Virus record (IMG/VR): IMGVR_UViG_3300049203_000084
Location: 1 to 62,151 of that record
DNA length: 62,151 nt
Reading direction: 5' to 3' (one strand)
Source: a virus
Part shown: positions 4,569 to 38,426 of the stretch, piece after piece
How positions within the stretch are numbered: the first letter of the stretch is position 1
How the letters are laid out: the number at the start of each line of letters is the position of its first letter
Made by a program: the position numbers and the translations under genes
The notes under the pieces: model-generated
Told to the model about the DNA's origin: nothing
The model's database searches: none
Seen by the model: only the letters and a program-made list of their open reading frames with translations

Positions 4569-4609
4569 GAAACTCCTAAAGTCAATGCTGAGAACCAGCG
4601 ATGACTCCA

Positions 4610-4618
4610 ATTCTATCA
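4610..4618 (-). promoter_or_regulatory. Putative extended -10 (TGATAGAAT) before portal
   Basis: Read on the minus strand the gap between terL and portal contains TGATAGAAT, matching an extended -10 (TGnTAnAAT), 41 bases upstream of the portal ATG. The following bases (TTGGAG..ATCGCTGG) closely resemble those after the same box at 50084-50092. Confidence 0.45.
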
Positions 4619-4656
4619 AGTCATGCTTTATTGCCTCTTGACTAAAGGCTTATCGA

Positions 4657-7492: not shown

Positions 7493-7564
7493 GCTGTGCG
7501 TTTACCGCCCGCTCGGCTCTCTTCTTCCTCCAGGCTTGCACTGGCATGAGGCCGATCTGAGAGT

Positions 7565-7674
7565 GAGGCTGGTGGGATTCGAACTCCACGTCCACTTCCC
7601 CGGCATAAGGTTGGACACCGATTCACGGACTGCCGCCGTGGGTGTAGCTATTGCCATCCACTACAGACAGCCTC
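7565..7674 (-). tRNA. tRNA-like structure, class II size, odd anticodon loop
   Basis: A 110-nt minus-strand fold. There is a perfect 7 bp acceptor (GAGGCTG with CAGCCTC), a D-like stem (TGTAG/CTACA), an anticodon-type stem CACGG/CCGTG with 7-nt loop CGGCAGT, a long variable arm closed by GTCCA/TGGAC, and a T arm with loop TTCGAAT but one bulged A. Position 33 of the loop is G rather than the almost invariant U; if read normally the anticodon would be GCA (Cys). No CCA is encoded. It may be a divergent, degenerate or non-decoding tRNA. Confidence 0.5.
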
Positions 7675-7680
7675 ACTCAG

Positions 7681-7741
7681 TGGACTGCCGGGTCTCGAAC
7701 CCGGGATGCTCCCGGCAGGTACACCCTGCTAAGCCAGTCCA
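7681..7741 (-). ncRNA. Compact tRNA-like structure without D arm
   Basis: Sixty-one nt on the minus strand. The acceptor pairs perfectly (TGGACTG with CAGTCCA), and the T arm is canonical (CCGGG, loop TTCGAGA, CCCGG). Only 30 nt lie between them; these form one hairpin GCAGG-GTGTA-CCTGC plus a linker, so a full D arm and a 7-nt anticodon loop are absent. It lies six bases from the 7565-7674 element. It could be a tRNA remnant, a decoy or an RNase P-type processing signal. Confidence 0.5.
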
Positions 7742-7899
7742 TTTTGAACCCATCTATAGGTTCTCCCTCTCCCACCCAGACTGAAGGGGTACTGGGCCGA
7801 GAGGGCTATTCGCTCGTTATCGAGCATGACGGTTATTTCAGGTGCTAACTCTTCTAGAAGTAGTCCGCTCCCACATGCGGAACACCAGAGCATTGTCAT
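7729..7899 (-). CDS. Possible small CxxC protein
   Basis: Fifty-six residues beginning MTMLWCSACGSG, with one CxxC pair and then an acidic/hydrophobic run. The start follows GAGCGAG. The stop codon lies inside the tRNA-like structure at 7681-7741, which is unusual and lowers confidence. No family is recognised. It may be a real small gene or a chance frame across the tRNA-like block. Confidence 0.35.
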   Translation of the reverse strand: MTMLWCSACGSGLLLEELAPEITVMLDNERIALSAQYPFSLGGRGRTYRWVQNGLA

Positions 7900-7911
7900 C
7901 TCGCTCAGGAG

Positions 7912-24992: not shown

Positions 24993-26470
24993 TGGAACGG
25001 TTAGTGCCCCGCCCAGAACAAGAAGAAGCAATCCAGGAAGTTTTGGCACACAAGAGTCACCTTTGTAGAGGGGAGACTGGGGCAGGAAAAACACTGATTG
25101 GTGTGGAAGCCATACTCAGGTCTCGCGCCAAGATTGCCCTTGTTGTCTGCCCAGTAAATACGTTTTCCGGCTGGACCAAGACGTTCCTCCGGCAGTCGGG
25201 CGGCAAGGTCCGGCCCCGCGTGATCGACTCCAAGCTGAAGGCAGGCAAGCTGGCCTTCGAGGCGCTGGTGCAGCGCGAGCCCGGTGTCTACCTCGTGGGC
25301 TGGGAGAAGTTCAGGATGTACGACTGGTCCAACATGCCACTGGATTTCACCATCGTTGATGAGGTTCACCGCCAGCAGAACCGGAGAGCAGGCACACACG
25401 CCTCGGTAATGACTACCAAGCACTCGACCTACAAGCTGGCCCTGTCCGCCACCCCGTGGGGCAATCACATCCAGGGTTCATGGGCGACTATTCGATGGCT
25501 CTGGTATGGCAGGCATGACATTGTGGGCAAGAATGACAGTTTTTGGAATTTCGTCACGATGCACATGACCACCGAGCTGGACCGCTACAGCGGCAAGAAG
25601 GTTGTGGGGGAGCGGACGCCGGGGACCGTCTGGGCCTCGCTGCCGTCCAAGTCCTACTTCCCCTCGCCGTATCAGGACGAGCCTGTCATCCACGAGATTC
25701 TGGTGCCCCTGAAGCCGACGCAGCGCAAGCTCTATGACCGCTTCGAGCAGGAAGCCATCGTGTGGCTGGAGGAGCACCCGCTGGTGGCTGACCTCCCCGC
25801 CGTCATGCGCGTCCGGCTCCGGGAAATCTGCCTCGCCGTCCCGTCCATCCGGTTCGAGTGGCAACGCATCCCGGACAATGACCTGCTCGATGAGAACTTC
25901 AACTGGGACCGCTGGGAGATGGAGGAGCGGGAGACCGGCTGGTATGCCTACAAGGAGGTGGTGTACTTCGAGGACGATGCCTTCTCCACCAAGGCCGACG
26001 CCATGCTCGATGTCATCAGTGACCTCTACGCGGCAGGGCCGGTGCCGATCCTCGTGTTCACCCACTCGGCCAAGTTCGCCACCATGTTCACCAAGCAGCT
26101 GCAGGCCAAGGGCTACAAGGCCCTGCGGTTCACGGGCGGGATGCCCCGTGAGGAGCGGGAGTGGAAAAAGGAGAACTTCGGCAAAGAGTACGACATCATG
26201 GTGTCTTCCATCGCCACCGTAGGCGAGGGAACCGATGGTTTACAGGATGTATGCAACATCGAGTTCTGGGTCTCCCTCGAAGACAACAGGCTCCTCAACA
26301 CTCAGGCCAAGGGCAGGCTCTCGCGGCCCGGTCAGAAGAAAACCGTCCAGCGGTTCCTGTTCCTCGCGGAGAACACCGTCGAGGTCAGGCAGGCTGGCAA
26401 GCTCAAAGCGGACCAGGAACAGCTGGACGCATCGTTTACCCCTCTCGAAGAACTGGAGACAGCAGCATGA
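24992..26470 (+). CDS. SNF2-like DEAD/DEAH helicase
   Basis: A 492-residue superfamily 2 helicase. Motif I GETGAGKT (near 27), motif II DEVH, motif III SATPWG, and C-terminal motifs V/VI (VGEGTDGLQ, QAKGRLSRPGQ) are all clear. It would remodel DNA or protein-DNA complexes during replication/recombination. It starts exactly at the stop of the HNH gene, which may have inserted in front of it. Confidence 0.9.
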   Translation: MERLVPRPEQEEAIQEVLAHKSHLCRGETGAGKTLIGVEAILRSRAKIALVVCPVNTFSGWTKTFLRQSGGKVRPRVIDSKLKAGKLAFEALVQREPGVYLVGWEKFRMYDWSNMPLDFTIVDEVHRQQNRRAGTHASVMTTKHSTYKLALSATPWGNHIQGSWATIRWLWYGRHDIVGKNDSFWNFVTMHMTTELDRYSGKKVVGERTPGTVWASLPSKSYFPSPYQDEPVIHEILVPLKPTQRKLYDRFEQEAIVWLEEHPLVADLPAVMRVRLREICLAVPSIRFEWQRIPDNDLLDENFNWDRWEMEERETGWYAYKEVVYFEDDAFSTKADAMLDVISDLYAAGPVPILVFTHSAKFATMFTKQLQAKGYKALRFTGGMPREEREWKKENFGKEYDIMVSSIATVGEGTDGLQDVCNIEFWVSLEDNRLLNTQAKGRLSRPGQKKTVQRFLFLAENTVEVRQAGKLKADQEQLDASFTPLEELETAA

Positions 26471-26997
26471 AATCCCTCAACGAATACCAGCAGCAGGCAA
26501 TGTCCACCGCCATCTTCCCTGTGGACCGGAGCCTGGACTACACCGTCCTCGGCCTCTGCTCCGAGGTGGGCGAGCTGGCCGAGGCATGGCTGGACAACAG
26601 CAAAGGCTACCCCGAGGTGGCTGCCGAGGCGGGTGACTGCTACTGGTACTCCGCTGCCATCGCAGACACGCTCGAAATCCGTTTGGAGAAGGTGGTCGAG
26701 CTTTACAACGGCCCCGAGGTCTCCGGCCAACTGATTGGCAACTTCATCATCGACCTGACCCGCGTATCAGGGAACCTCGCCGGACTGGTCAAGAAGGCCA
26801 TTCGGGATGATGGTGGGCACTTCACGCAGGAGAAGGAAGCCAAGGCCATCTACTTCCTGGGCCGCACCATCCTCCTCTTGGACAAGATCACACAACAGCT
26901 CGGCACCAGCCGGTACGCCGTGATGAACGACAACTTGGACAAGCTCGCAGACCGCAAGCAGCGCGGTGTGCTTCAAGGATCAGGAGACAACCGGTAA
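26467..26997 (+). CDS. MazG-like nucleotide pyrophosphohydrolase
   Basis: A 176-residue protein with the MazG metal site LCSEVGELAEAW (ExxE) followed by EAGDCYWY (ExxD). Phage MazG proteins hydrolyse (d)NTPs or alarmone-type nucleotides and shape the nucleotide pool. It overlaps the helicase by 4 bases. Confidence 0.85.
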   Translation: MKSLNEYQQQAMSTAIFPVDRSLDYTVLGLCSEVGELAEAWLDNSKGYPEVAAEAGDCYWYSAAIADTLEIRLEKVVELYNGPEVSGQLIGNFIIDLTRVSGNLAGLVKKAIRDDGGHFTQEKEAKAIYFLGRTILLLDKITQQLGTSRYAVMNDNLDKLADRKQRGVLQGSGDNR

Positions 26998-27251
26998 TGA
27001 GCAAGCGGACAACGGCGTCCCTCCTCTGGGAGCGGCAGGCCACCTACAACAAGCGCATGAGCAGCATCGAGCGGCTGACCACAGCTGCACAGGACTACAC
27101 CTTCCCGGCAGGGCAGGCGCAGGCAGGAATCCAGCTGGCCACCGTCGAGGTGCCGTGGCTCCTGGCGGAAATTGAACGGCTGAAGCTGAATCTGAAGGAC
27201 CACATCAATGACATCGAGCACCCCACCCATACGGTGGCTTCGGTCGCATGA
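26997..27251 (+). CDS. Small helical protein of unknown function
   Basis: Eighty-four residues, helical; overlaps the MazG stop. C-terminal helix PWLLAEIERLKLNLKDHIND is amphipathic. Confidence 0.6.
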   Translation: MSKRTTASLLWERQATYNKRMSSIERLTTAAQDYTFPAGQAQAGIQLATVEVPWLLAEIERLKLNLKDHINDIEHPTHTVASVA

Positions 27252-27546
27252 CCCCGAGGCCCGCCCGCTCGGCTGCAACGGCAAGTACGGCTCTGGTGGA
27301 GCCCGCAGACATCACCGCAGAGGCGAGCCTGTGTGTGCCAAGTGCAAGGCCAGTGACAACCACTATCGCCGCGAGAAGCGCCGGGGACAGCGGCTGGCAA
27401 GGCGGAAGGCACCATGTGGCACACCAGAGGCAGCACGGCGTCACAGGCACCAAGGGGAGCCCGTGGACATGGCCTGCAAGCTCGCAGACGCAGAAGCAGC
27501 TCGGGCATACCGGGCCGCACGCAAACAATCCGTGAAAAACCATTGA
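27208..27546 (+). CDS. Small basic Cys-containing protein
   Basis: A 112-residue, very basic protein. LGCNGKYGSGGARRHHRRGE followed by CAKCK and a second unit PCGTPEAARRHRHQGE are two copies of the C-G-T/R-R-H-x-R-G-E motif seen in many small actinophage proteins. It overlaps the upstream gene by 44 bases. Likely nucleic-acid binding. Confidence 0.6.
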   Translation: MTSSTPPIRWLRSHDPEARPLGCNGKYGSGGARRHHRRGEPVCAKCKASDNHYRREKRRGQRLARRKAPCGTPEAARRHRHQGEPVDMACKLADAEAARAYRAARKQSVKNH

Positions 27547-27572
27547 CAGCTTTGCGCGTGGGTCTATAGATT
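27543..27572 (+). promoter_or_regulatory. Early promoter with operator-like spacer
   Basis: TTGACA (27543-27548) and TAGATT (27567-27572), or TATAGA two bases earlier. The spacer contains CTTTGCGCGTGGGT, matching the operator-like family. It overlaps the end of the 27208 gene. Confidence 0.65.
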
Positions 27573-27624
27573 TGTCCTGTAGCACTCCACAAATAAAAAC
27601 CACACACTGCACAAGGAGCACATT

Positions 27625-27765
27625 ATGAGCAAGCGCAACGCACTCGCAGAAGTTATCCGATACTCACGCGGTGAGGACGCCAGCGTGCGGCCCAGTGAGC
27701 AGGACTTCACCACTGCCGATGCCATTCTGGCTGAGGGCTACGCACAGACCACGAACAACAAGTAA
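27625..27765 (+). CDS. Small protein of unknown function
   Basis: Forty-six codons, MSKRNALAEVIRYSRGED..., behind AAGGAGCACATT in a CACACA-type leader directly after the 27543 promoter. Ends QTTNNK. Confidence 0.6.
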   Translation: MSKRNALAEVIRYSRGEDASVRPSEQDFTTADAILAEGYAQTTNNK

Positions 27766-27779
27766 CCAAGGAGCATCCA

Positions 27780-28202
27780 ATGTCACCCCTGAACCTCACC
27801 GTCGATTCCCCGGCCCCGGTTGTCACCAAGCCCGCCGTCTCCGAAAACCTCCTGGAGCTGCTGGCCGAGCAGGCGCTGGAAGCCCAGCAGGAAGCCGACA
27901 AGGCCGCAACCGCCGCCAAGGCAGCCACCGAGAAGTTTCGCAAGGCCCTCGAAGCAGCTGGCAAGCTGGACGCGGACACCAAGGTTGTCGGCATCGTCCG
28001 CACCACCATCTTCCCCACGGCCCGGTTCAACGAGGACTTGGCCCGTGGCCTCCTCACCAAGAAGCTCCAGAAGGAGTGCGAGAAGACCGTCCTGGACTCG
28101 GCACTGGTCAAGGCCAAGGTCTCCCCGGAGCAGTACAAGCAGATGCAGGCCGTGACCGGCATGACCCTGAAGCTCTCCATCGACAAGGAGCAGGTCTCCT
28201 AG
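27780..28202 (+). CDS. Helical protein of unknown function
   Basis: A 140-residue protein with an Ala/Glu/Lys coiled coil (about 25-65). AAGGAGCATCCA precedes ATG. The C-terminal part is globular. No family recognised. Confidence 0.6.
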   Translation: MSPLNLTVDSPAPVVTKPAVSENLLELLAEQALEAQQEADKAATAAKAATEKFRKALEAAGKLDADTKVVGIVRTTIFPTARFNEDLARGLLTKKLQKECEKTVLDSALVKAKVSPEQYKQMQAVTGMTLKLSIDKEQVS

Positions 28203-28265
28203 CTTTCGGCTCCGATTACTCAGTAGCTACTTTTCATCCACATATCAGTAAAGCAGGAGCACACC

Positions 28266-28640
28266 ATGAACCCCACCGTCACCAAAGAGCAGGCGTGGAC
28301 CATCTTCCACGCCGACAAGATGGGCTGGCGCGAGCAGGCTGATTCAGCCCTGAAGAACATGACCGGCCCGGAGCAGCAGGCCTATCAGGTCCACGCCGAA
28401 GAGTTCGAGCTGGCGCTGGCCAAGCTCGGCATCGAGGCCCAGAACGAGGGCGCGGCCATCTGGGCCGACAACCCCAACACCCAGTTCGTGCTGGAGAACA
28501 CCAAGCCGTATGACCTGACCGCAGACCAATACTGCGCCATCATCCAGCTGTTCAAGGGCTCCAAGTTCGAGCGTCTGCATCTATCGGCCATGTTCCGCGT
28601 CCAGAACGCTGAACTCCTCCTGGAACTGGTGAAGCCATGA
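28266..28640 (+). CDS. Protein of unknown function
   Basis: A 124-residue helical protein; starts MNPTVTKEQAWTIF after CAGGAGCACACC. Overlaps the next gene by 4 bases. Confidence 0.6.
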   Translation: MNPTVTKEQAWTIFHADKMGWREQADSALKNMTGPEQQAYQVHAEEFELALAKLGIEAQNEGAAIWADNPNTQFVLENTKPYDLTADQYCAIIQLFKGSKFERLHLSAMFRVQNAELLLELVKP

Positions 28641-29002
28641 ACAAGATCGAATCAGCCCACGACGTATTCTGGCTGGCCCGGTACGCCCACAACACCCTCG
28701 ACCCGCTGTTCAAGGCAGCCAAGCAGTACGATCCCACCATCCAGTGGAGCATCGAGCTGACCTTTGCCGATAAGGACTCCCAGTACGCCAAGAGCAACCA
28801 CGTCACACTCAGGGCACACTGGGCACGGGAACAGCCGATCATGCTCTTTCAGGTTCCCCACCTCTACGACAAGGGGGGCGTGGACGGTGCGGCAGCCAAG
28901 CTGCAGGCCTGGATCGACGCCGAGCAGGCCAAGCTGGAGGCCGCTCACGACGCCGCTGTCTCCTACTCCATCTCGACCGTGGAAACGGGTATCGCGGCAT
29001 GA
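28637..29002 (+). CDS. Protein of unknown function
   Basis: A 121-residue protein, mixed alpha/beta by pattern, with a helical C-terminus (AKLQAWIDAEQAKLEAAHD). Overlaps neighbours by 4 bases. Confidence 0.6.
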   Translation: MNKIESAHDVFWLARYAHNTLDPLFKAAKQYDPTIQWSIELTFADKDSQYAKSNHVTLRAHWAREQPIMLFQVPHLYDKGGVDGAAAKLQAWIDAEQAKLEAAHDAAVSYSISTVETGIAA

Positions 29003-29286
29003 GCAAGTCCAAGGCGTTCCTCCAGCTGATCGCAGACAACCCACCACCTTGCAAGACCATCGGTGACCCCGAGCTGTTCTTCCCGAGCTACGCCGAGGGG
29101 AACGAGTTTCAGGTCAAGCAGGCCAAGGCAGTGTGCCGGAAATGCCCGCTCACCACCCAGCTTGGCTGCCTGGAGTTCGCCTTGGACACCGATGACCAGT
29201 TCGCAGTGCTCGGCGGCACCACCCCCGCCGAGCGCACCATCATCAAACGCCGCCGAGAAGCACAAGAAGGGAGGCTGGCAGCATGA
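28999..29286 (+). CDS. WhiB-family Fe-S regulator
   Basis: Ninety-five residues with the four Cys of WhiB proteins (PPPCKTIGDPELFF, then VCRKCPLTTQLGC) that hold a [4Fe-4S] cluster, followed by the turn VLGGTTPAERTIIKRR equivalent to the G-V/I-W-G-G loop and basic DNA-contact segment. WhiB-like genes are known in actinophages, where they change host transcription and can block superinfection. It is limited to Actinobacteria and their phages, so it supports the host class. Confidence 0.88.
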   Translation: MSKSKAFLQLIADNPPPCKTIGDPELFFPSYAEGNEFQVKQAKAVCRKCPLTTQLGCLEFALDTDDQFAVLGGTTPAERTIIKRRREAQEGRLAA

Positions 29287-30074
29287 CCACGACAGCACTG
29301 GAGACGTTCACCGAGGCGGATGTCACGGCAGCGTTCACCAAGGGCTTCACCCGGCAGTCCGAGCGCGACAAGCAGGTCAAGATCGGGCCGTCAGAAATCG
29401 GCGGCTGCACCTACTGCGTCGGCTACACGATGGCCTCGAAGCTCTGCGAGATGCCCAGCCGGGATGACGGCTTCGGCTACGCCGCCTGGATCGGGACGAT
29501 GGCCCACTTCTGGCTGGAGCAGAATCTGGTGCTGGAGCACCCCGTCACCGGGGAACCGCTGGACACCCTGCGCGAGCACAAGGTGAGCGTGTTCGACATC
29601 CCGGACTACGGCACCATCAAGGGCCACCTGGACATCTACACCCCGGCCTTCCGGGAGACGGGCGACTACAAGTTCCCCGGCAAGTATTCGCTGGAGAAGC
29701 TGCAGACCTCGCTGGCCAAGCGCCGCAGGGCTCTGAACGCTGGAGACCTGGAGGAGGCAGCCAAGTACGGCCCCAGCCTCCAGTACCGCTACCAGCAGCA
29801 GCTGTACGCCCACGGACTCATCCAGCTGGGCTACGAGGTGGAGCGGTGCCGCATCATCTTCCTTCCCCGGCACACGAACGACATCCGCGATGTCATCCAC
29901 TGGGTGGAGCCCTACCAGCCCGAGATGGTGGAGAAGGCTTTGGCCCGCACCATCCTCATCTGGGAGTACGTTCAGGCAGGCCAGCTGGGCGAACTGCCTT
30001 CGGATGATGACTGCTACTCCTGCGACCGCGTGGGCCGTGGCGACCTGACCAACTACAACGAAACACTCAACTAG
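29283..30074 (+). CDS. Cas4/RecB-like exonuclease
   Basis: A 263-residue PD-(D/E)XK nuclease. GHLDIY and GDYKF supply the active-site D...D/E-x-K; YRYQQQLYAHGLIQLGY is the typical QxxxY helix. Cys pairs at the N-terminal (GGCTYCVGY) and C-terminal (DCYSCDRVG) ends suit a Fe-S cluster. It probably makes ssDNA ends for recombination with the ATPase and ssDNA-binding protein that follow. Confidence 0.85.
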   Translation: MTTTALETFTEADVTAAFTKGFTRQSERDKQVKIGPSEIGGCTYCVGYTMASKLCEMPSRDDGFGYAAWIGTMAHFWLEQNLVLEHPVTGEPLDTLREHKVSVFDIPDYGTIKGHLDIYTPAFRETGDYKFPGKYSLEKLQTSLAKRRRALNAGDLEEAAKYGPSLQYRYQQQLYAHGLIQLGYEVERCRIIFLPRHTNDIRDVIHWVEPYQPEMVEKALARTILIWEYVQAGQLGELPSDDDCYSCDRVGRGDLTNYNETLN

Positions 30075-30083
30075 GAGAACATC

Positions 30084-30941
30084 ATGACAACCACAGACAT
30101 TGACCCCGATGAGGCCCTGGCAGCCCTTGCAGCCGAGGCTGAGGCAGCCGAAGAGAAGCCCGTCAAGAAGGCCGTGGCCAAGAAGCCCGCTCCCACCAAG
30201 GACTTGTTCGACCTGTCCAGTATCCCCGGCGTCAGCATCGGCGCACCGCGCGAGATGACCTCCAAGTTCAGCATGATGCTGTACGGCGGCAAGGGCGTCG
30301 GCAAGACCTCGCTGCTGGGTGATTGCGCCAACGTCCCGGCATGGGCTCCCATCCTCATCCTCGCCACCGAGGACGGCTCCAGTGTGCTCCACCGGGACTA
30401 CGCCGACAACCCGCTGGTGCGCGTGGTGAACATCGAGGACTGGGCTACTGCGGCCCCGCTGATCCAGGCAGTGGCCGAGAACGAGACCATCTACAAGACG
30501 GTGGCCATCGACACCCTGCCCGAGCTGCAGGAAATCAACAAGCTGCACATCACCAACGAGGGCCAGAACGAAATGCGCATCCAGGACTGGGGCACGCTGG
30601 CGGACAACACCATCAACGTGGTCAAGATGCTGCACCGCTCGCCCTACGTCAACGTCATCTTCACGGCCCACGTCGAAAAGGTCCAGGACGACGCAGGCAA
30701 GGTGCTGTACTCGCCCTACCTGCTGGGCAAGAAGTCCCTGCAGGAGGCCATGAAGCCCATCGACATCGTGGCCTACCTCGCCGTCGTGCAGGACAAGAGC
30801 ACCAAGGAAAGCATTCGTGTGCTCCAGGTCCACCCCGATGGCAAGTTCGACGCCTCGGACCGCTCCGGCAAGCTGCAGGGGCAGTACGTCGATCCCCACA
30901 TGATCGACCTCTACACGGATTTGATGGCCGAAAACCAGTGA
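30084..30941 (+). CDS. RecA-like (Sak4-type) recombination ATPase
   Basis: A 285-residue protein with Walker A YGGKGVGKTS near residue 75 and a Walker B-type TVAIDTLPEL. The Ala/Lys-rich N-terminal tail (about 1-45) is probably disordered. Its place between nuclease and ssDNA-binding protein fits a phage single-strand annealing or strand-exchange set. Confidence 0.8.
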   Translation: MTTTDIDPDEALAALAAEAEAAEEKPVKKAVAKKPAPTKDLFDLSSIPGVSIGAPREMTSKFSMMLYGGKGVGKTSLLGDCANVPAWAPILILATEDGSSVLHRDYADNPLVRVVNIEDWATAAPLIQAVAENETIYKTVAIDTLPELQEINKLHITNEGQNEMRIQDWGTLADNTINVVKMLHRSPYVNVIFTAHVEKVQDDAGKVLYSPYLLGKKSLQEAMKPIDIVAYLAVVQDKSTKESIRVLQVHPDGKFDASDRSGKLQGQYVDPHMIDLYTDLMAENQ

Positions 30942-30951
30942 CACCCAACGA

Positions 30952-30969
30952 GCCTAGTGATAGGCTTTT
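30952..30969 (+). terminator. Weak hairpin after the ATPase gene
   Basis: gccta/taggc stem with 4-nt loop followed by TTTT. It could reduce, not abolish, read-through into 31042. Confidence 0.45.
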
Positions 30970-31041
30970 CCCTATCGCTTACTAGTTCAGTAAGTTCTTC
31001 TCAAAAAATAACAACCCACCCATCCAGTAAGGATCACCACA

Positions 31042-31623
31042 ATGGCACGTCTTAGCCTCAACGTAGACCAGGAAACCTTCGAGAACGCCGGTCGGAGCTT
31101 CACGCCGGTCCCGCAAGGTGACTACAAGGTCAGCATCTTCGCCATCACCCCTGACGAGGTGAAGAACGGCGAGAACAAGGGCAAGCCTCGGCTGAAGTTC
31201 CAGTTCCGCATCGCGGACGGGGAAGAAGCCCCCGATGGCACCAAGCAGGGCAACCGCCGCCTGTTCTCCGACATCAACGCCTTCGACGGCGTGGACAAGA
31301 AGACCAACAAGCCCACCCCGCCGTTCGACCTCGTGGCCATCGGCAAGGCTCTCGGCTACAGCGCCGAAGACCTGAAAGACCTCGACACGGACGACTGGCT
31401 GGGCGAGGAACTGCAGGTCACCGTCAAGCACACCCGCAAGCAGCATCAGGTGAACGGCGCTTGGGTCAACATCGAGCCCGCCGAGTACCGCGAGACGGTC
31501 CGGGGCTACCGCTCCCTGGCCTCCGTCGAGACCTCGGTAGCCGCCGCTGCAGCCGTCGCAGGCAAGGCCCCCGCAGCCTCCACCGGCAAGGCCAAGGCTG
31601 CCGGAGCCAAGTTCAAGCTCTAG
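31042..31623 (+). CDS. ssDNA-binding/recombination mediator-like (DUF669-type)
   Basis: A 193-residue protein. The first 150 residues form an OB-like beta domain (GDYKVSIFAITPDEVK, LKFQFRIADG, ELQVTVKHTRK); the tail is Ala/Lys-rich and ends AKFKL. Position after the RecA-like ATPase matches single-strand-binding or DUF669-type proteins in actinophages. Exact family uncertain. Confidence 0.65.
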   Translation: MARLSLNVDQETFENAGRSFTPVPQGDYKVSIFAITPDEVKNGENKGKPRLKFQFRIADGEEAPDGTKQGNRRLFSDINAFDGVDKKTNKPTPPFDLVAIGKALGYSAEDLKDLDTDDWLGEELQVTVKHTRKQHQVNGAWVNIEPAEYRETVRGYRSLASVETSVAAAAAVAGKAPAASTGKAKAAGAKFKL

Positions 31624-31654
31624 GCCCCCCACCCACCACGCACCAACGAACCCC

Positions 31655-31665
31655 AAAGGAGGTGA
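31655..31665 (+). promoter_or_regulatory. Very strong Shine-Dalgarno before an 8-codon ORF
   Basis: AAAGGAGGTGA is a full match to the 16S anti-SD tail, far stronger than other sites in this phage, and precedes the ATG at 31672. Confidence 0.7.
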
Positions 31666-31671
31666 CCCATT

Positions 31672-31698
31672 ATGTGGCGCTGGATCATTTCTCACTAG
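31672..31698 (+). CDS. Leader peptide MWRWIISH
   Basis: Nine codons including stop. Two Trp codons among eight suggest ribosome-stalling control. It lies between the strongest ribosome site in the window and a tRNA-like fold followed by a terminator. It may be a regulatory leader; the peptide itself may have no other role. Confidence 0.5.
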   Translation: MWRWIISH

Positions 31699-31705
31699 CA
31701 GTACC

Positions 31706-31751
31706 GCCCAGCCTGTGAAGGCACACAGCCCGTTCGAGACGGGCGCTGGGC
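31706..31751 (+). ncRNA. Mini tRNA-like structure in the early operon
   Basis: Forty-six nt folding as a three-way junction: 7 bp acceptor-like stem GCCCAGC/GCTGGGC, a 4 bp stem TGTG-AAGG-CACA in place of the D/anticodon arms, and a canonical T arm GCCCG-TTCGAGA-CGGGC. The T loop has the same seven bases as in 7681-7741. An acceptor plus T arm is the minimal bacterial RNase P substrate. Confidence 0.55.
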
Positions 31752-31766
31752 ACTAGGCAATATCCG

Positions 31767-31790
31767 GGCCAGCGGAAGCTGGCCTTTTTA
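31767..31790 (+). terminator. Strong terminator before primase
   Basis: GGCCAGC-GGAA-GCTGGCC with TTTTTA directly after. The tetraloop is of GNRA type. It lies inside an operon, upstream of essential replication genes, so anti-termination or attenuation is expected. Confidence 0.85.
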
Positions 31791-31808
31791 TCGGCAGGAG
31801 CAACGCTA

Positions 31809-31838
31809 ATGCGTATCAAAGCAAGTGGGGGAGCATGA
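31809..31838 (+). CDS. Coupling mini-ORF MRIKASGGA
   Basis: Nine codons behind CAGGAGCAACGCTA; its TGA overlaps the ATG of the primase gene (ATGA). It may recruit ribosomes to the primase start, which also has GGGGGAGC inside this mini-ORF. Confidence 0.4.
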   Translation: MRIKASGGA

Positions 31839-34054
31839 GCCAGCAGGACGAGTTCACCACATTTCTCTGGGAAGGGCTTGAAGGCCGAGCGGTCATCGCC
31901 CTCATGGACGAGCGGGGAGCCCCTACCAACCAGCGGTTCTTCAGCTGGCCGGAGCAGAAGGCGCAGCTGCTGGGGTACACCGCCAAGCAGGCCGCGCACG
32001 ACACCTACACCTCACCGTCCCTGTTCCGGGCCACCAACGCCCGCAAGCGCAGCGTCAAGTGCATCCAGGTGGTCCACGCCGACGCCGACACCTTCAACGT
32101 CGAGGACGCCCTGCTGGAGCCGTCCGGCATCGCCACCACCTCCGAGGGCAAGACGCACCTCTACTGGAAGATCACGGACTGCCATGACCCGGCCCTGATC
32201 GAACCGCTCGCGCACTCGGTCTCGGACACCCACGACAAGGCAGAGACCGGGCTGGACAACGGCTGGGCCGTCAACAAGCTCCTCCGTGTGCCGGGAACCT
32301 CAAACACCAAGTATGACGAGCCGTTCCTTGTCACTTTCGAGAACACCGGCCTGACCTACACGCTGGACGAGTTCGCCGCAGCCTACCCGCCCGTCGAGCA
32401 CACCTCCGTGCTGAACGCGGACATGGGCGAACTGCCCAGCTACCCGGCAGCCCTGAAGTCCCTGAAGGCCTCGCCCAAGCTCCTGGAACTGCTGAACAAA
32501 AAAGTCGCGGGCAACGTGGACCGCTCCGACGCGCTGTTCCTGCTGCACAACGAGGTCTTCCGCTGCGGCGGCACCAACGAGGTGGCTTTCGTCATCGCCC
32601 AGAACCACGTCCTGAACAAGTTCAACGAGAAGAACAACTCGGACGAACTGCTCTGGGAGGACGTGCTGCGCGCCCGGTCCAAGTCCGAGATTGGTGAGAC
32701 CGAGGACGAGGAGCTGGAAGGCGTCAACGTCACCGTCGAGCCCAGCGTCAAGGACAAGTCCGTGGACTTCCTCTCGGCCACCGAGAAGGCAGGCCTGCAG
32801 CGCACGTTCGTGGATGACTACATCGCATGGGCTACCTCCAAGACCGACGCCGCGCAGGAATACCACGTCGCCTCGGCCTTCATGATCCTCTCGACCGTGT
32901 TCTCCGACTTCGGCCACGCGGTCCCCAAGTTCGGCAGGTTGCCGTTGAACCTCTGGTTTATGGTGCTCGGGGAGACCACCCGCTCCCGGAAGTCCACCAC
33001 CCGCGCGCTCGGCCTGCAGTTCATCAAGGCCCTCGCCGTGGTGCCCGAGACGGAGGGCGAGGTGGACTTCAACTATGACCTCGGCTCCGACTTCACCCCG
33101 GAAGCCCTGGACAACGAACTGCTGAAGCGTCCCAACCGCTCGGCCCTGCTGCACCGCGATGAGGCGCAGGGCTGGATTCAGGAAATGGACAAGAAGGCCT
33201 ACATGGCTGGGGCCAAGGGCAAGATGACCGAGCTGTACGACGGCCACGTCTCCGGCAAGCTGCGCGCCACGGGCGATAACAACCGGCGCGGCTCGGTGGA
33301 CGTGGCCCTGACCCTGTTTATGATGGGCATCGCCTCGCAGGTGGCTGACTACCTGACGCAGGACGACTTTCGCTCAGGCTTCCTGACCCGCTTCATCTAC
33401 ATCGAGGCCACCCCGCCGCCGCGCTCGGCCCAGTCCGACTGGCTGGAGCAGGCCGACATCCACGAGGTCAAGCAGGGTGACGAGGTGTTCACCGCGATGG
33501 TGAAGCGCATCGAGACCGCCCGGAACCACTGGGCCAGCTTTGCGGACCCCGACGCTCCCACGGTGCCGGTTCCCTGTGTGCCGGAAGCGTGGCTGCGGCT
33601 GAACAAGTTCATCACCGACGTGCTGGACGCAGCCGAGGGCCACCAGCGCCACCAGATCATCGAGGCAGCCAGTGACCGTCTCACCAAGTCCATCCTGAAG
33701 GCAGCCACCCTCCTGGCGATGCTCGACTGCTGCGACAAGGTGCAGGTGCCCCACATGCTCGCGGCCATCAACTTCGCCAGCAGCTGGTTCACCCACATGG
33801 TCAACATGGCCAACCGCATCTCCGAGTCCAGCTGGGCGCGCAGGCAGACGCAGGTTGAGGAGTTCCTGCTGGAGAAGGGCGGCACGGCCAAGTGGGAGGT
33901 GGTCTACCGGCAGTTCCGGCAAGACCTCCGGGCCGATGAGTTCCTGAAGATCATCCAGGCGCTGCAGGACGCAGGCATCATCATGGTCACCCCGTCAGAG
34001 AAGGGCGTCCGGTGGATCACCCGCGTTGACATTGATGAGGAGCTGGCCGCGTAA
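31835..34054 (+). CDS. Primase-polymerase/helicase fusion
   Basis: A 739-residue protein. The N-terminal third resembles archaeo-eukaryotic primases: VVHADADTFN carries a D-x-D pair, and SEGKTHLYWKI matches the following conserved strand. The rest is helicase-like with a P-loop-type LGETTRSRKSTT (about 380) and acidic LLHRDEAQGW as Walker B. It would prime and unwind DNA during phage replication. It begins after the leader/tRNA-like/terminator element at 31655-31790. Confidence 0.78.
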   Translation: MSQQDEFTTFLWEGLEGRAVIALMDERGAPTNQRFFSWPEQKAQLLGYTAKQAAHDTYTSPSLFRATNARKRSVKCIQVVHADADTFNVEDALLEPSGIATTSEGKTHLYWKITDCHDPALIEPLAHSVSDTHDKAETGLDNGWAVNKLLRVPGTSNTKYDEPFLVTFENTGLTYTLDEFAAAYPPVEHTSVLNADMGELPSYPAALKSLKASPKLLELLNKKVAGNVDRSDALFLLHNEVFRCGGTNEVAFVIAQNHVLNKFNEKNNSDELLWEDVLRARSKSEIGETEDEELEGVNVTVEPSVKDKSVDFLSATEKAGLQRTFVDDYIAWATSKTDAAQEYHVASAFMILSTVFSDFGHAVPKFGRLPLNLWFMVLGETTRSRKSTTRALGLQFIKALAVVPETEGEVDFNYDLGSDFTPEALDNELLKRPNRSALLHRDEAQGWIQEMDKKAYMAGAKGKMTELYDGHVSGKLRATGDNNRRGSVDVALTLFMMGIASQVADYLTQDDFRSGFLTRFIYIEATPPPRSAQSDWLEQADIHEVKQGDEVFTAMVKRIETARNHWASFADPDAPTVPVPCVPEAWLRLNKFITDVLDAAEGHQRHQIIEAASDRLTKSILKAATLLAMLDCCDKVQVPHMLAAINFASSWFTHMVNMANRISESSWARRQTQVEEFLLEKGGTAKWEVVYRQFRQDLRADEFLKIIQALQDAGIIMVTPSEKGVRWITRVDIDEELAA

Positions 34055-34458
34055 TGCACTCTCTCGACTACTTCACACAACGCTCGGCGGTGGATGAGAA
34101 CTTTTGCTGGGTCTGGAGTCTCCACATCACCCGAGGCGGCTACGGAAAGTTTCGTTGCGGCCCCAAGTGGTATCAGGCTCACCGAGGTGTCTACGAGGCG
34201 GTCTTCGGGAGGTTCGATGCAGGCCTGACCGTCGATCACATCTGCTTCAACACCGCTTGTATCAATCCGGCGCATCTCCAGTTGCTGACTCTGAAAGAGA
34301 ACCAGAGACGCCAACGTAGCGCATTTGCAACGTACTGCAAGTCAGGCCATCTGTTTGATGAGGCAAACACCTACATCCGTCCTACTGGGCAGAGACAATG
34401 CCGCAAATGCAACTCCCTGGCAGCACAGAAGCTCAACATGAAGAAGGTGGCGGCATGA
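34054..34458 (+). CDS. Free-standing HNH endonuclease
   Basis: A 134-residue protein: FCWVWSLHITRGGYGKF, then LTVDHICFNTACINPAHLQLL as the HNH core, and YCKSGHLF...QCRKCNS as a C-terminal zinc ribbon. It starts at the primase stop (TAATG overlap). Similar to 6147-6623 in layout. Confidence 0.85.
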   Translation: MHSLDYFTQRSAVDENFCWVWSLHITRGGYGKFRCGPKWYQAHRGVYEAVFGRFDAGLTVDHICFNTACINPAHLQLLTLKENQRRQRSAFATYCKSGHLFDEANTYIRPTGQRQCRKCNSLAAQKLNMKKVAA

Positions 34459-34730
34459 GGCAGTGCGAGTGGTGCAGCGAGGAGTTCGAGCCCACCGGCA
34501 CCGATCAGGCCTACTGCAAGCCCCGCCATGCCAAGAACGCCCGCCTGAAGCGCAAGAAGGAGAAGGACTTGCTCGCCGCCGCAGGCAAGTGCCCGACACC
34601 CTACAAGCGGGTCTACGTCAACGAGGAGCACGCCCAGCGCCGGGGACTGCTCCCCAACCAGTACCTCTACCGATGCTCCTGCGGAGCCATCCACTCGGCA
34701 ACCGTCAAGACCAAGAAGGCAGCAGCATGA
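34455..34730 (+). CDS. Small zinc-finger protein
   Basis: Ninety-one residues. CEWCSEEF ... YCKPRHAK and YRCSCGAI suggest two metal sites, around a Lys-rich helix. Overlaps neighbours by 4 bases. Confidence 0.6.
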   Translation: MRQCEWCSEEFEPTGTDQAYCKPRHAKNARLKRKKEKDLLAAAGKCPTPYKRVYVNEEHAQRRGLLPNQYLYRCSCGAIHSATVKTKKAAA

Positions 34731-35149
34731 CCGCCCAAGTTGAAGACATCTTCACCGCAGACCTCACCAACGTCCAGGACAGGATGCTGCTGGGGCTCAC
34801 GCGGGCCAAGGAAATCTGGGTGCTGGCCGCACTGGCTGACCGGAAGCAGCGGCTGCTGATGGCACACGAACTGCACGCCTACGGACTGTTCAGTCTCAAC
34901 CAGCTGGCCAAAATCTGCCGGATCAGCGTCCCCACCGTGTGCCGCCACATGAAGAAGAACGCTGTCGGCGGGAAGTTCGAGCCCGAGGTGCTGTCCCAGC
35001 TGGTGTACCTGCGCAAGCTCGTCATCGTCAACCAGCCCATCCCTGTCTCCTTCATCAAGGGAGCCGTCGAGACCGGAACCTCGGTCAGCACCATCGCCCG
35101 CCTCACAGGGGCATCCGAAACCAATCTGTACCTCAAAGTCAAGCAATAG
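34727..35149 (+). CDS. Helix-turn-helix protein
   Basis: A 140-residue protein. LFSLNQLAKICRISVPTVCR is a clear helix-turn-helix, and a second HTH-like segment (STIARLTGASETNLYLKV) ends the protein. Probably a DNA-binding regulator or replication accessory protein. Confidence 0.65.
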   Translation: MTAQVEDIFTADLTNVQDRMLLGLTRAKEIWVLAALADRKQRLLMAHELHAYGLFSLNQLAKICRISVPTVCRHMKKNAVGGKFEPEVLSQLVYLRKLVIVNQPIPVSFIKGAVETGTSVSTIARLTGASETNLYLKVKQ

Positions 35150-35158
35150 GAGCACACC

Positions 35159-35758
35159 ATGACTGTTTTAGGACTCACCGGATTTGCCCAGAGCGGCAAG
35201 AGCACTGTCGCCAACTACCTCGTGGAGCAGCACGGCTTCACCCGCCTGTCCTTCGCGGCCCCGCTGAAGCAGATGCTGCGGACGCTGAACCCCATCATCG
35301 CCTTCGAGGACAGTGGGGACACCCGAGTCGATCAAGTCCGTGTGGGTGATCTGTTCAACGGAGGCTGGACCGAGCAGGACATCAAGGCCGATACCAATCT
35401 TGGCCCTGAGTACCGCCGTCTCCTCCAGGTGCTCGGCACCGACTGTGTGAGGGCCGTGCAGGAGGACTTCTGGATTCGAGCAGCCGAGGCTCAGATCACT
35501 GACCCCGCCGCCAACTACGTCTTCGATGACTGCCGCTTCCCCAACGAGGCCCAGTTCATCGAGAGCAAGAGCCCTCTCGGCCTGTGGAACATCCGGCGCG
35601 GGGGAGTCACCGCTGTCAACGGCCACGTCTCGGAGCAGCACGCCGGGAACATGGGCGAGTTCGTCACCCTGTTCAATGACCGGACCATCGAGATGCTGTT
35701 CGAGAACGTGGATGTGGTCCTCGACTTGGTTCAAGGGCAGGAGGCTCAGGCAGCATGA
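35159..35758 (+). CDS. Deoxynucleoside monophosphate kinase
   Basis: A 199-residue P-loop kinase: LGLTGFAQSGKSTVA at the N-terminus binds ATP; LSFAAPLKQML and FDDCRFPNEA are typical of phage dNMP kinases. It would raise dNTP supply. The 3' end overlaps the polymerase start by 4 bases. Confidence 0.85.
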   Translation: MTVLGLTGFAQSGKSTVANYLVEQHGFTRLSFAAPLKQMLRTLNPIIAFEDSGDTRVDQVRVGDLFNGGWTEQDIKADTNLGPEYRRLLQVLGTDCVRAVQEDFWIRAAEAQITDPAANYVFDDCRFPNEAQFIESKSPLGLWNIRRGGVTAVNGHVSEQHAGNMGEFVTLFNDRTIEMLFENVDVVLDLVQGQEAQAA

Positions 35759-37911
35759 GGGTCTACCTGAGCAGCGCCGATGTCGTGACGCCTCAGTGCC
35801 TGGAAATCCTGTCACGGGTCAAGAACGACACCATTCCCAACATCGAGCTGGAGTTCAGCAAGATCGTGGGGGAGGAACTGCCGCCCAACGCCACCGTCTT
35901 TGCGATGGGCAGCTACGCGCGCCGGGGCGATGAGCGTGTGGTCCCGGCCCCGTCCGTGGCCCAGTGCCTGACCAAGCCGGACATCCTCACCCGGCTGGGC
36001 ACGGCGTTCCGGCTCTTGGCCACCCCACCCGAGCTGCCCGAGTTCGAGTACACCGTGATCGAGGACATGGTGGACGCGATGGAGTTCTTGAACTCGATTG
36101 CGGACTACCCCAAGGTCGTGGTGGACATCGAGACCTCCGGCGACATCTCGGTGGACGAGGCTGAGCCCCGCCGCATCATCTCCATCGCCATCACAGCAGG
36201 TGGCATGAGCTATGTTTTCCCGGAGGAGCTGTGTACCGACACAGCCTTCTACTTCGACTTCTGCGCGTTCATGGAGCGCAATGGCATCATCGCCGTCAAC
36301 GGCAAGTTCGACCTGAAGTATTTCCCCGACTCCAAGGTCCGGTTCGTCCGCGACACCCAGCTGGCACACTACGCACTGTTCCCGGCTGCCGGACAGCATG
36401 ACCTGAAGAACACCACCAAGAAATACTTCGGCTTCGAGGACTGGGACGAGGCCACCAAGCAGTACACCAAGAAGGCCACCTACGAGGAGGCGTGGCGGGA
36501 CGAGGAGACAGGCGCGCGGGCCGACGCCCGCAGCTACTCTGCCGGGTCCGGCTACGAGCGCATCCCCCGTGACCTGCTCTACCGCTACAACGCCTTCGAC
36601 GTGTACGCCACATGGCACTGGGATGTCCTCATGGAGGAGTACCTTGCCGATGACCCCGACTCCCAGCGGGTGCTCGAACTGCTGATGAAGCTCTCGGACA
36701 TGTTCATGGGCGTGGAGAAGCGCGGCATCCGGCTGGACATCCCCTATCTGGAGGAACTGTCCGGCATCCTGACCAAGGAGAAGGCCGAGGCCGAGGCCAA
36801 GCTGAACGAGATTGCCGAGCAGGCCATCAACCCCCGCTCGCCCAAGCAGGTCAAGGAGTGGTTCGAGGCTCACGGCGTGAACCTGAAGGGCACGGCTGAG
36901 GGCGTCCTGAACGACTTCCTGGACGGGGAGGAGCACGAGTCTCAGGAGGCGGATTTCGCCCGTCAGATTCTTGTGTGCCGGGACTACACCAAGCAGCTGG
37001 GCACCTATGTGGACGGCTACCGGAATCAGGCCGACGCCAATGGCATCGTCCGGCCCGGATACAAGCTCACCGCGTCCACCACGGGCCGTCTGGGCGGTCA
37101 GGGAGCCTCCATGCTCACCCTGCCCCGTGACAAGCGTCTGAAGAAGATGGTGCTGCCCTTCCAGGACAACCACTTCGTGGTGGGCGCTGACCTCTCGCAG
37201 GCCGAGCTGCGCGTGATGGCCTGTGAGTCGATGGACGAGTGGCTGATCGAGGCGTTCCAGCCCGGTGCGCCGGACTTCTTCGACAACCTGCTCACGCAGG
37301 CCTACCCCCGCACGGACTGGTTCGACCTCCACGGCTGTGTCAGCGAGCACACCGCCACGGAGGAGCAGACCAACTTCTACAACAACAAGCGCGCCAGCAT
37401 GAAGGGCGTGGTGTACGGGAAGTCCTTCAACCGTGGTGAGAAGGCCATCGCCAAGGCCCTGAAGATCACGCTGGACGAGGCAATCCGCCTCAGCGATGCC
37501 TTCATCCGGCCCGGTTCGATGTTCGCCCTGTGGCGCGAGGAAATCACCGAGCGCGCCATCAACGGCGAGTCCATCGTGACCAAGTTCGGCAGGCACTTCC
37601 AGTCCGAACTCATCACCCCGAAGAACCGCCAGAGCGTCATCAACGGCGCGCTGGCTTTCACCTCGCAGTCCACGGCCAACGACATCTGCCTGACGGCAGC
37701 CCTGGAGGTCAACAAGTGCCTCCCGGCCTACGGGGCACACCTCATGGGGACAGTTCACGACGCAATTTATGTGTCTGCTCCCAAAGCAGAGGTCGAACTG
37801 GTGGGGCACGTTTTGGTGCGAGAGCTGGCCAAGGCTGGGGATGCCGTCTACGGCGGGCTGGTCCCATTCGCGGCAGACTCGGGCTCGGGAGAAAATCTCG
37901 CAGCCGTCTAA
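35755..37911 (+). CDS. Family A DNA polymerase
   Basis: A 718-residue polymerase with 3'-5' exonuclease (VVVDIETSGD near 122, later acidic and Tyr motifs) and polymerase domain: motif A GADLSQAELRVMA, motif B KRASMKGVVYGKSFNRGE, motif C GTVHDAIYV. No 5'-nuclease domain. In motif B the residue in front of GVVYG is Lys where bacterial Pol I has Phe and T7 has Tyr. The main replicative polymerase of the phage. Confidence 0.92.
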   Translation: MRVYLSSADVVTPQCLEILSRVKNDTIPNIELEFSKIVGEELPPNATVFAMGSYARRGDERVVPAPSVAQCLTKPDILTRLGTAFRLLATPPELPEFEYTVIEDMVDAMEFLNSIADYPKVVVDIETSGDISVDEAEPRRIISIAITAGGMSYVFPEELCTDTAFYFDFCAFMERNGIIAVNGKFDLKYFPDSKVRFVRDTQLAHYALFPAAGQHDLKNTTKKYFGFEDWDEATKQYTKKATYEEAWRDEETGARADARSYSAGSGYERIPRDLLYRYNAFDVYATWHWDVLMEEYLADDPDSQRVLELLMKLSDMFMGVEKRGIRLDIPYLEELSGILTKEKAEAEAKLNEIAEQAINPRSPKQVKEWFEAHGVNLKGTAEGVLNDFLDGEEHESQEADFARQILVCRDYTKQLGTYVDGYRNQADANGIVRPGYKLTASTTGRLGGQGASMLTLPRDKRLKKMVLPFQDNHFVVGADLSQAELRVMACESMDEWLIEAFQPGAPDFFDNLLTQAYPRTDWFDLHGCVSEHTATEEQTNFYNNKRASMKGVVYGKSFNRGEKAIAKALKITLDEAIRLSDAFIRPGSMFALWREEITERAINGESIVTKFGRHFQSELITPKNRQSVINGALAFTSQSTANDICLTAALEVNKCLPAYGAHLMGTVHDAIYVSAPKAEVELVGHVLVRELAKAGDAVYGGLVPFAADSGSGENLAAV

Positions 37912-37914
37912 CCC

Positions 37915-37944
37915 TTGACACTCGTGCGCAGGGGTTACTAGATT
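37915..37944 (+). promoter_or_regulatory. Promoter with operator-like spacer
   Basis: TTGACA (37915-37920), 18 bases, TAGATT (37939-37944). The spacer CTCGTGCGCAGGGGTT belongs to the dispersed operator-like family. It lies just after the polymerase stop. Confidence 0.7.
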
Positions 37945-37979
37945 GTTCTTTACGCAGTACAACTTACAGGGGAAAAGCA

Positions 37980-38426
37980 ATGAAGGTTCTTTGGCTCGAT
38001 CCAGGCGGGATGACGGGCGTGTGCCTGTTCAACGCAGACACCCTGAAAGTTGATCTCTTCAAGATCATTCCCAACGGGCTCACCGGCTTCCAGGAGTGGG
38101 TGGAGTTCGGAGATGTCCCCGAGCACGACGTGCTTGGCTGTGAGTCCTTCGAGCTGGAGGAGGGCACACACGGGGTGGACCTCACCCCTCTCGCCATCAT
38201 TGGCTACCTCGAATCGCTGGGGATGCCGATTGTGTGGCAGCGCCGCAACCAGCGCGGCAAAGACAAACTCATCTCGGTCTCGGTCCTGAAACGGGCCGGT
38301 CTCTATCCCAAGCGCGGGGAGTTGAAAGAGGGGCATCAGGTGGCAGCCCTCCAGCACGCACTGCGCTATCTCGTCAGTATCCGCCACCTACCCACCATTC
38401 GTTTGCTTCACCCACCACAGGAGTAA
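37980..38426 (+). CDS. RuvC-like nuclease (Holliday junction resolvase-like)
   Basis: A 148-residue protein beginning MKVLWLDPGGMTGVCLF, the RNase H-fold strand with the first catalytic Asp. GCESFEL provides the second acidic residue, and HQVAALQHALRYLV the C-terminal helix of RuvC-like proteins, where Asp is replaced by Gln/His. It would resolve branched DNA before packaging. ATG follows CAGGGGAAAAGCA. Confidence 0.7.
   Translation: MKVLWLDPGGMTGVCLFNADTLKVDLFKIIPNGLTGFQEWVEFGDVPEHDVLGCESFELEEGTHGVDLTPLAIIGYLESLGMPIVWQRRNQRGKDKLISVSVLKRAGLYPKRGELKEGHQVAALQHALRYLVSIRHLPTIRLLHPPQE

Follow-up and report, generated by a model that had tools for sequence, protein, structure and literature searches.

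A conserved anticodon-less tRNA-like structure beside a stop codon between the SSB and primase genes of a phage group: a candidate RNA-processing signal

What is the role of the structured leader that lies between the SSB-like gene and the primase gene of a phage? The question was raised by the phage record IMGVR_UViG_3300049203_000084 of IMG/VR, of which the whole stretch analysed, 62,151 bases, is called hereafter the window. In its replication gene run, an AAA ATPase gene (start 30084) lies upstream of an SSB-like gene of the DUF669 type (31042..31623, + strand, 193 aa; Pfam PF05037, E 1.5e-7), the primase gene follows (31835..34054, +, 739 aa, DUF3987), and an HNH endonuclease gene (start 34054) and a DNA polymerase A gene (start 35755) are located downstream. 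The nearest primases from cultured phages, 51% identical, are those of the Arthrobacter phages Molivia and Amigo, in which the gene at the SSB-like position is annotated as a single strand DNA binding protein. No DNA-level match to the locus was found in annotated phages, nor any relative among the bacterial genome contigs scanned with the primase. A promoter-like pair, TTGACA-18-TAGATT, is present in two identical copies (27543-27572 and 37915-37944) that bracket the replication gene block.

From SSB to primase, the SSB stop is followed by a C-rich stretch (31624..31654, +), a Shine-Dalgarno sequence AAAGGAGGTGA (31655..31665, +), a mini-ORF encoding MWRWIISH* (31672..31698, +), a 7-nt spacer CAGTACC (31699..31705, +), a 46-nt fold, 14 nt, a terminator, an AGGAG ribosome site (31796..31800, +) and a second mini-ORF MRIKASGGA* (31809..31838, +), whose stop TGA overlaps the primase ATG (ATGA). 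Direct reading of the C-rich stretch revealed a similar form in L008, one of the related loci described below, and none in the other loci of the group. A ribosome site similar to AGGAG occupies the same place in relatives, and longer genes stand in the place of the second mini-ORF in some of them. Judging by the gene order, one transcript presumably spans SSB, fold and primase.

A preliminary description of this leader had noted a resemblance to attenuation by ribosome position, which could tie primase expression to the translation state or the Trp-tRNA level of the host. In such a scheme, stalling on Trp codons of the first mini-ORF, or stopping at its stop codon, would refold the leader and so set primase transcription. 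The ribosome site of this mini-ORF was said to be the best in the window, and this was borne out: as computed against a 16S 3' end sequence, its duplex of -17.8 kcal/mol ranks first among all 1,681 ATGs of the window, and it is stronger than the sites of all 362 ORFs of at least 60 aa. The sequence AAGGAGGTGA has a single exact match in the window. The 8-codon peptide with its two Trp codons was also found as described (ATG TGG CGC TGG ATC ATT TCT CAC TAG, stop TAG at 31696-31698).

The fold, correctly reported to begin 7 bases after this stop, is a tRNA-like three-way junction devoid of an anticodon arm (31706..31751, +), called hereafter TLS. It consists of an acceptor stem P1 of 7 bp (31706-31712/31745-31751, +), a D-like arm P2 of 4 bp whose loop ends in G (31714-31717/31722-31725, +), and a T-arm P3 of 5 bp (31728-31732/31740-31744, +) with the loop UUCGAGA (31733-31739). 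It corresponds to the upper half of a tRNA, in which the T-arm is stacked directly on the acceptor, and in which D-like arm and elbow are kept. In the alignment of relatives (A4), every sequence ends its P2 loop with G and has C at the third T-loop position; a tRNA-type elbow pair, predicted from these invariant letters as G31721-C31735 (+), is therefore expected. The 3' flank ACT (31752..31754, +) provides a discriminator A, then C, with no encoded CCA, and resembles the 3' flank of another tRNA-like gene of this phage (7911-7980).

The significance of the fold was estimated by shuffling and by comparison of relatives. The segment 31699-31760 was more stable than most of its shuffles (z = -2.5, 2 of 200 as stable), whereas the stability of the whole leader taken as one unit was not unusual (z -1.43, equalled by 16 of 200). 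In an alignment of 22 sequences fitted to the model, and hence biased towards that structure, 97.1% of the cells were paired and double-sided changes affected 10 of 16 pairs, values each reached in 0 of 500 shuffles; the covariation score was 0.375, versus 0.153 after shuffling. An alignment of 14 sequences made by MAFFT only gave 96.6% paired cells and double-sided changes in 8 of 16 pairs. In both alignments, the covariation signal was lost when the 3' partners were shifted by 1-3 columns. Some pairs are variable: among the 20 distinct sequences of the model-fitted alignment, the closing pair of the T-arm is lost in seven, the fourth P1 pair is gapped in four and another P1 pair is broken in two, and L007, L008 and L011, read by eye, have no more than about four solid P1 pairs. 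The TLS is, almost certainly, a genuine and conserved RNA structure.

Known classes of structured RNA were then compared with the TLS. ARAGORN made no tRNA call at 31706-31751, where there is no cloverleaf with a 7-nt anticodon loop, and no call of a tmRNA, which combines a tRNA-like domain with a tag ORF. The upper half of a tRNA is present, with a 12-bp acceptor plus T-stem, a 7-nt T-loop UUCRA and a G-C elbow, the latter deduced from invariance only. No Rfam family matched the fold at its gathering score; the tRNA family RF00005 gave no match in the window region even at E <= 10, nor did the mascRNA-menRNA family RF01684 in window positions 31620-31840, and only chance-level matches were obtained at E <= 10 in the window and in L025. 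Among 14 relatives searched at gathering score, tRNA matches were limited to L002 and L003. No published description was found among open-licence PMC papers. As far as searches of Rfam and of the open-licence literature reach, the TLS is undescribed.

To determine its distribution, viral-contig loci around primase matches were collected in two sets, of 20 and 55 loci, many of them identical between sets. In the first set, which comprises 20 close primase relatives, upstream sequence is available for 17, and all of these carry a TLS between SSB and primase; the three others (L012, L020 and L021) start inside the primase gene and are uninformative. A covariance model, R1, built from 14 sequences and giving rough E-values only, matched 21 of 52 sources at E <= 3.4e-4, each time at the SSB-primase junction, and added three contigs, L091, L123 and L140, the last one cut by the contig end. 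It had no match in 160 other, unrelated viral loci (1.39 Mb), taken as 80 + 80 among the matches listed by two over-permissive pattern searches. A scan of 22 records with R1 found one TLS per genome; seven records scored below E 1e-4, and three further ones matched solely at E 0.5-0.8, which was taken as chance. Weak matches (E 0.0042-0.26) came from L036, L037 and L048. In the last of these the fold lies, as read by eye, 7 nt after the TAG closing a short ORF (about 49 aa), and is treated as a lead. On this unrelated contig, at 1906-1954 and again some 600 bases on, a T-arm/acceptor element and then a hairpin precede each of two tandem homologous small genes.

A strict scan for the upper half (12-bp acceptor/T-arm, TTCRA loop) retrieved 25 of 52 primase-upstream regions, versus 0.175 expected from shuffles. 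The figure of 25 is rough, as the wrong 5' strand was paired in L007, L011, L018, L194 and L205, and the scan misses many true members that have a bulge or a C-A closing pair. A tighter version, run over the whole window, stopped at three places only, each tRNA-like. Finally, a pattern search that returned 31 stretches contributed L030 as the sole new member counted beyond the known loci; L041, another contig bearing this element (8 nt past the stop codon), was excluded from the counts.

The position of the TLS relative to translation is nearly fixed. It starts 7, 8 or 9 nt after a stop codon in 14, 6 and 4 loci, respectively, of the 24 available (20 measured together, L010 by reading, and three more contigs). 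This stop is that of SSB in 22 of the 24, with SSB sequences that, in the most distant cases measured, are 52-58% identical; in L030 SSB is not checkable near the locus end, and its stop closes a frame cut by that end. In the window and L008, the SSB stop is displaced upstream and a mini-ORF occupies the gap, stopping 7 and 8 nt before the fold, respectively. The L008 mini-ORF, MSGFWAWIMHF*, looks homologous to that of the window: both contain W-x-W-I and two Trp codons, and its ribosome site is likewise very strong (-20.0 kcal/mol). That these two mini-ORFs end beside the fold suggests that a ribosome terminating next to it is of importance. The order noted in the window is thus found in relatives with respect to fold, hairpin and distance to the stop codon, but not with respect to the leader peptide, which is absent in 22 of the 24 loci. 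Stop-codon read-through through the fold was considered as well, and rejected: in relatives such as L006 and L015, as read by eye, the reading frame that continues past the SSB stop meets another stop within the fold.

The TLS and its surroundings were compared in 12 hand-chosen pairs of loci. Between L011 and L025 the flanks are 97.5% and 98.9% identical, whereas the TLSs are 54% identical and fold alike; L016 and L194 offer a lesser version of this (flanks 94% and 82%, TLS 63%). Conversely, L013 and L014 have an identical TLS and upstream sequences that are merely 59% identical. Judging by these pairs, the TLS is exchanged as a unit, its shape being retained. Reading of the sequences showed extra genes resembling HNH endonucleases or DNA methylases at the junction in L008, L010, L013, L014, L022 and L024, which makes homing and repair possible drivers of the exchange. 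In L010, the HNH-like gene (4376-4990) interrupts the TLS within the T-arm, and the TLS may be dispensable or rebuilt there. The L010 insert begins with a tRNA-like upper half of its own, with the T-arm GCATG-TTCGAGT-CATGC.

Could the TLS be a decayed, functionless tRNA gene? Genes for tRNA are found at the same place in the related phages Amigo, Molivia and Yappy. Decay is nevertheless hardly credible, because compensatory changes preserve the base pairs, and because versions 54% identical, placed between near-identical flanks, keep the fold unchanged; covariation contradicts this reading.

The mid-operon terminator of the preliminary description proved to be there as a sequence. A GC-rich hairpin, GGGCCAGC-GGAA-GCTGGCCT (stem 31766-31785), then TTTTA, with a run of five T, fits a predicted intrinsic terminator (31766..31790, +). 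It is the best-looking of nine terminator-like matches in 26000-38000, an interval not enriched overall (9 found, versus 9.4 in shuffles). In 20 of 20 loci, including the window, a hairpin is located 8-22 nt 3' of the TLS; its sequences differ, and L015, L016 and L024 have a weak U-run.

With such a terminator in the middle of an operon, behind the strongest ribosome site of the window and two Trp codons common to the window and L008, attenuation could be envisaged, and the behaviour of the leader upon folding was inspected. When the 5' acceptor strand was masked, as a ribosome might do, the terminator still formed with a probability of at least 0.88 in 19 of 20 loci, L030 being the lone exception (0.65 to 0.23); an antiterminator is therefore not conserved. 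These are equilibrium foldings, and a kinetic switch lies beyond their reach. In the window, the 3' acceptor strand pairs with the 5' arm of the terminator while the 3' arm is still unmade (0.87), so that a purely kinetic attenuation could operate there; across loci, this upstream pairing varies from 0.05 to 0.87 and is not conserved. Mutually exclusive antiterminator and terminator structures were not found by masked folding in 19 of 20 loci. As a leader peptide is also missing from 22 of 24 loci, Trp attenuation was rejected as the general function, and regulation by ribosome position in the form first proposed is improbable. The results suggest that half of that idea survives, namely a terminating ribosome near the fold, and that Trp sensing as such does not.

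The order of fold and terminator would also suit a riboswitch-like aptamer, in which the TLS binds a ligand or a protein and governs the terminator. A tRNA-like fold can indeed regulate, as exemplified by the tRNA-shaped yjdF riboswitch (excerpts of PMC9142559). Strand sharing between the TLS helices and the terminator is, however, not conserved, the helix sequences are freely swapped among phages, which is more like recognition of a shape, and Rfam gave no match to yjdF nor, at E <= 10, to any riboswitch in the window region. We consider an aptamer to have little chance of being correct.

More distant relatives carry other structured RNAs at the SSB-primase junction. L211 has an anticodon-less three-way fold with ACTTTTTT directly after it, and L185 is similar by eye. 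In many distant loci a pseudoknot, CCUGAG...AAACUGCUC or GGGGUGCG...CGCAC, lies a few bases past the SSB stop and is followed by a tRNA-like element. At this junction four tRNAs are called in Amigo and Molivia, three of them with an odd or undetermined anticodon. Nothing tRNA-like was detected in the 340 nt upstream of the primase in other distant relatives, among them L184, L188-L190, L197 and L198. The pseudoknot, of H-type and conserved (CCUGAGCA...AAACUGCUC or GGGGUGCG...CGCAC), was noted in L002 (3580-3612), L003 (2556-2588), L182, L193, L203, L204, L213, L216 and others. In most loci it begins a few nucleotides past the SSB stop and 5' of the tRNA-like element, and among the loci searched Rfam gave no family for it at gathering score. 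In L199, L200, L203, L204, L210, L213 and L215, reading by eye showed an enlarged 'anticodon' loop, CTTCTTCTCC, complementary to the primase ribosome site GGAGAAGAAG, both sequences being nearly invariant.

These distant loci bear on the idea that the TLS is an element of translation or stability, acting as a compact stopper past the SSB stop codon and as a leader for primase, while the terminator lowers primase relative to SSB. In L199-L215, the tRNA-like element ends, by eye, a few bases 5' of the primase ribosome site, and a 2- to 6.3-fold rise in translation was obtained when tRNAs were put 5' of a Shine-Dalgarno site (excerpts of PMC9142559). The hairpin found after the TLS in all 20 loci agrees with such a role. 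In the group of the window, however, the primase start lies beyond the terminator, about 80 nt from the TLS, and overlaps its own mini-ORF. A function of this kind is conceivable, though not likely.

Another proposal would have the TLS released, and acting in trans as a decoy for host factors that bind or cut tRNAs. Evasion of anticodon nucleases is a proposed role of phage tRNAs (excerpts of PMC10264068), and the phage of the window has two or more further tRNA-like elements whose anticodon arms are abnormal. The fixed position beside the SSB stop favours a role in cis, and there is a single copy per genome, so a decoy is quite doubtful. The other elements are found on the minus strand at 7500-8100, a non-coding stretch of the window with two strict tRNA upper-halves that have abnormal middle arms. 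One (7913-7980) is called as tRNA-Ser, with a predicted anticodon loop of 3 nt and without the long variable arm; the other (7681-7741) has one arm with a 5-nt loop. By eye, a third and longer tRNA-like stretch ends near 7565, on the same strand.

The features conserved in the TLS, a 12-bp stacked helix and an elbow, are those read by the enzymes that mature tRNAs. RNase P reads the elbow pair in tRNA, and mascRNA retains this pair (excerpts of PMC11693755); RNase P also processes the M3 RNA and the C4 RNA of phages, and the gene 32 message of T4 (excerpts of PMC11143913). From these kept features and precedents, together with that of plant mitochondrial t-elements, we tentatively propose, at a probability of about 0.38, that the TLS is a cis-acting RNA-processing signal cut by RNase P, which would split the SSB message from the primase message. 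A tRNA-like upper half with an elbow, placed in a longer transcript, is what such a signal would look like, and both fold and elbow letters agree with it. Host RNase P would recognise the 12-bp stacked helix and elbow, and cut at the 5' edge of the TLS, just past the stop codon; RNase Z might come next, at the 3' edge. Together with a terminator that we take to be leaky, cutting would produce an SSB message ending just past its stop, apart from the primase-polymerase message, and might in this way affect expression. In the window and L008, the extra mini-gene with its very strong ribosome site would restore a ribosome terminating beside the TLS; the processing signal does not require it. Several points stand against a processing signal. 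One is the flank ACT rather than CCA; cutting of a phage T4 precursor by RNase P is better with CCA (excerpts of PMC11143913). Another is the weakness of the acceptor stems in L007, L008 and L011, together with the lost, gapped or broken pairs of other members. The distant relatives that are devoid of a tRNA-like element upstream of primase, and the interrupted T-arm of L010, weigh in the same direction.

A terminating ribosome covers about 7-9 nt of RNA beyond the stop codon. The protein of RNase P contacts positions -8 to -3 of the leader of its substrate (excerpts of PMC11143913), so both might compete for the same 7-9 nt. In such translation-gated punctuation, the SSB-primase message would stay joined as long as the upstream ORF is busily translated, and would be cut at the TLS by RNase P when translation slackens. 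Competition would account for the fixed spacing of 7-9 nt, and for the mini-ORF with the strongest site that ends there where the SSB stop has moved away. This extension of the processing signal is, on present grounds, unlikely.

If the processing signal is real, a conserved, single-copy, anticodon-less mimic of tRNA is built into a phage message. Its natural versions, different in sequence and alike in shape, would form a system for studying the recognition of a tRNA upper half alone, by RNase P or by the ribosome. It would bear on whether phages punctuate messages with tRNA-like structures, as mitochondria do, and some odd actinophage tRNA calls with an undetermined anticodon may be such elements rather than tRNAs.

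How does the TLS compare with known systems? Attenuators of the trp type combine a short ORF having two Trp codons, hairpins and a terminator. The leader of the window resembles them in having such an ORF, then hairpins and a terminator; TLS loci differ by a leader peptide limited to 2 of 24 loci, and by the lack of a conserved antiterminator. For plant mitochondrial t-elements, which are processed by organelle enzymes, we know of no fixed distance of 7-9 nt to a stop codon and of no following terminator. Like the TLS they are tRNA-like structures, and they define cleavage sites between genes (excerpts of PMC8003010). The yjdF riboswitch is a tRNA-like mRNA element with a D-loop/T-loop elbow that acts on gene expression, and is distinguished from the TLS by its ligand-binding junction and by a T-loop that pairs with the Shine-Dalgarno sequence (excerpts of PMC9142559).

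mascRNA and menRNA, the 3' pieces of the human MALAT1 and MEN-beta RNAs, share with the TLS an acceptor, a T-arm, a reduced D-arm and an elbow; mascRNA is a tRNA mimic without a usable anticodon, its elbow is held to explain its recognition, and the RNase P cut at its 5' edge generates the 3' end of the upstream RNA (excerpts of PMC11693755). mascRNA has a long stem in the anticodon region and belongs to a human nuclear RNA, and cutting of the TLS is a prediction. Gene 32 of phage T4 is an SSB gene too. The gene 32 message, the M3 RNA and the C4 antisense RNA differ from the TLS in that none is described, in the excerpted text of PMC11143913, as a conserved tRNA-like element that lacks an anticodon and lies at a stop codon; like the message proposed here, they are phage RNAs, and the host RNase P cuts them.
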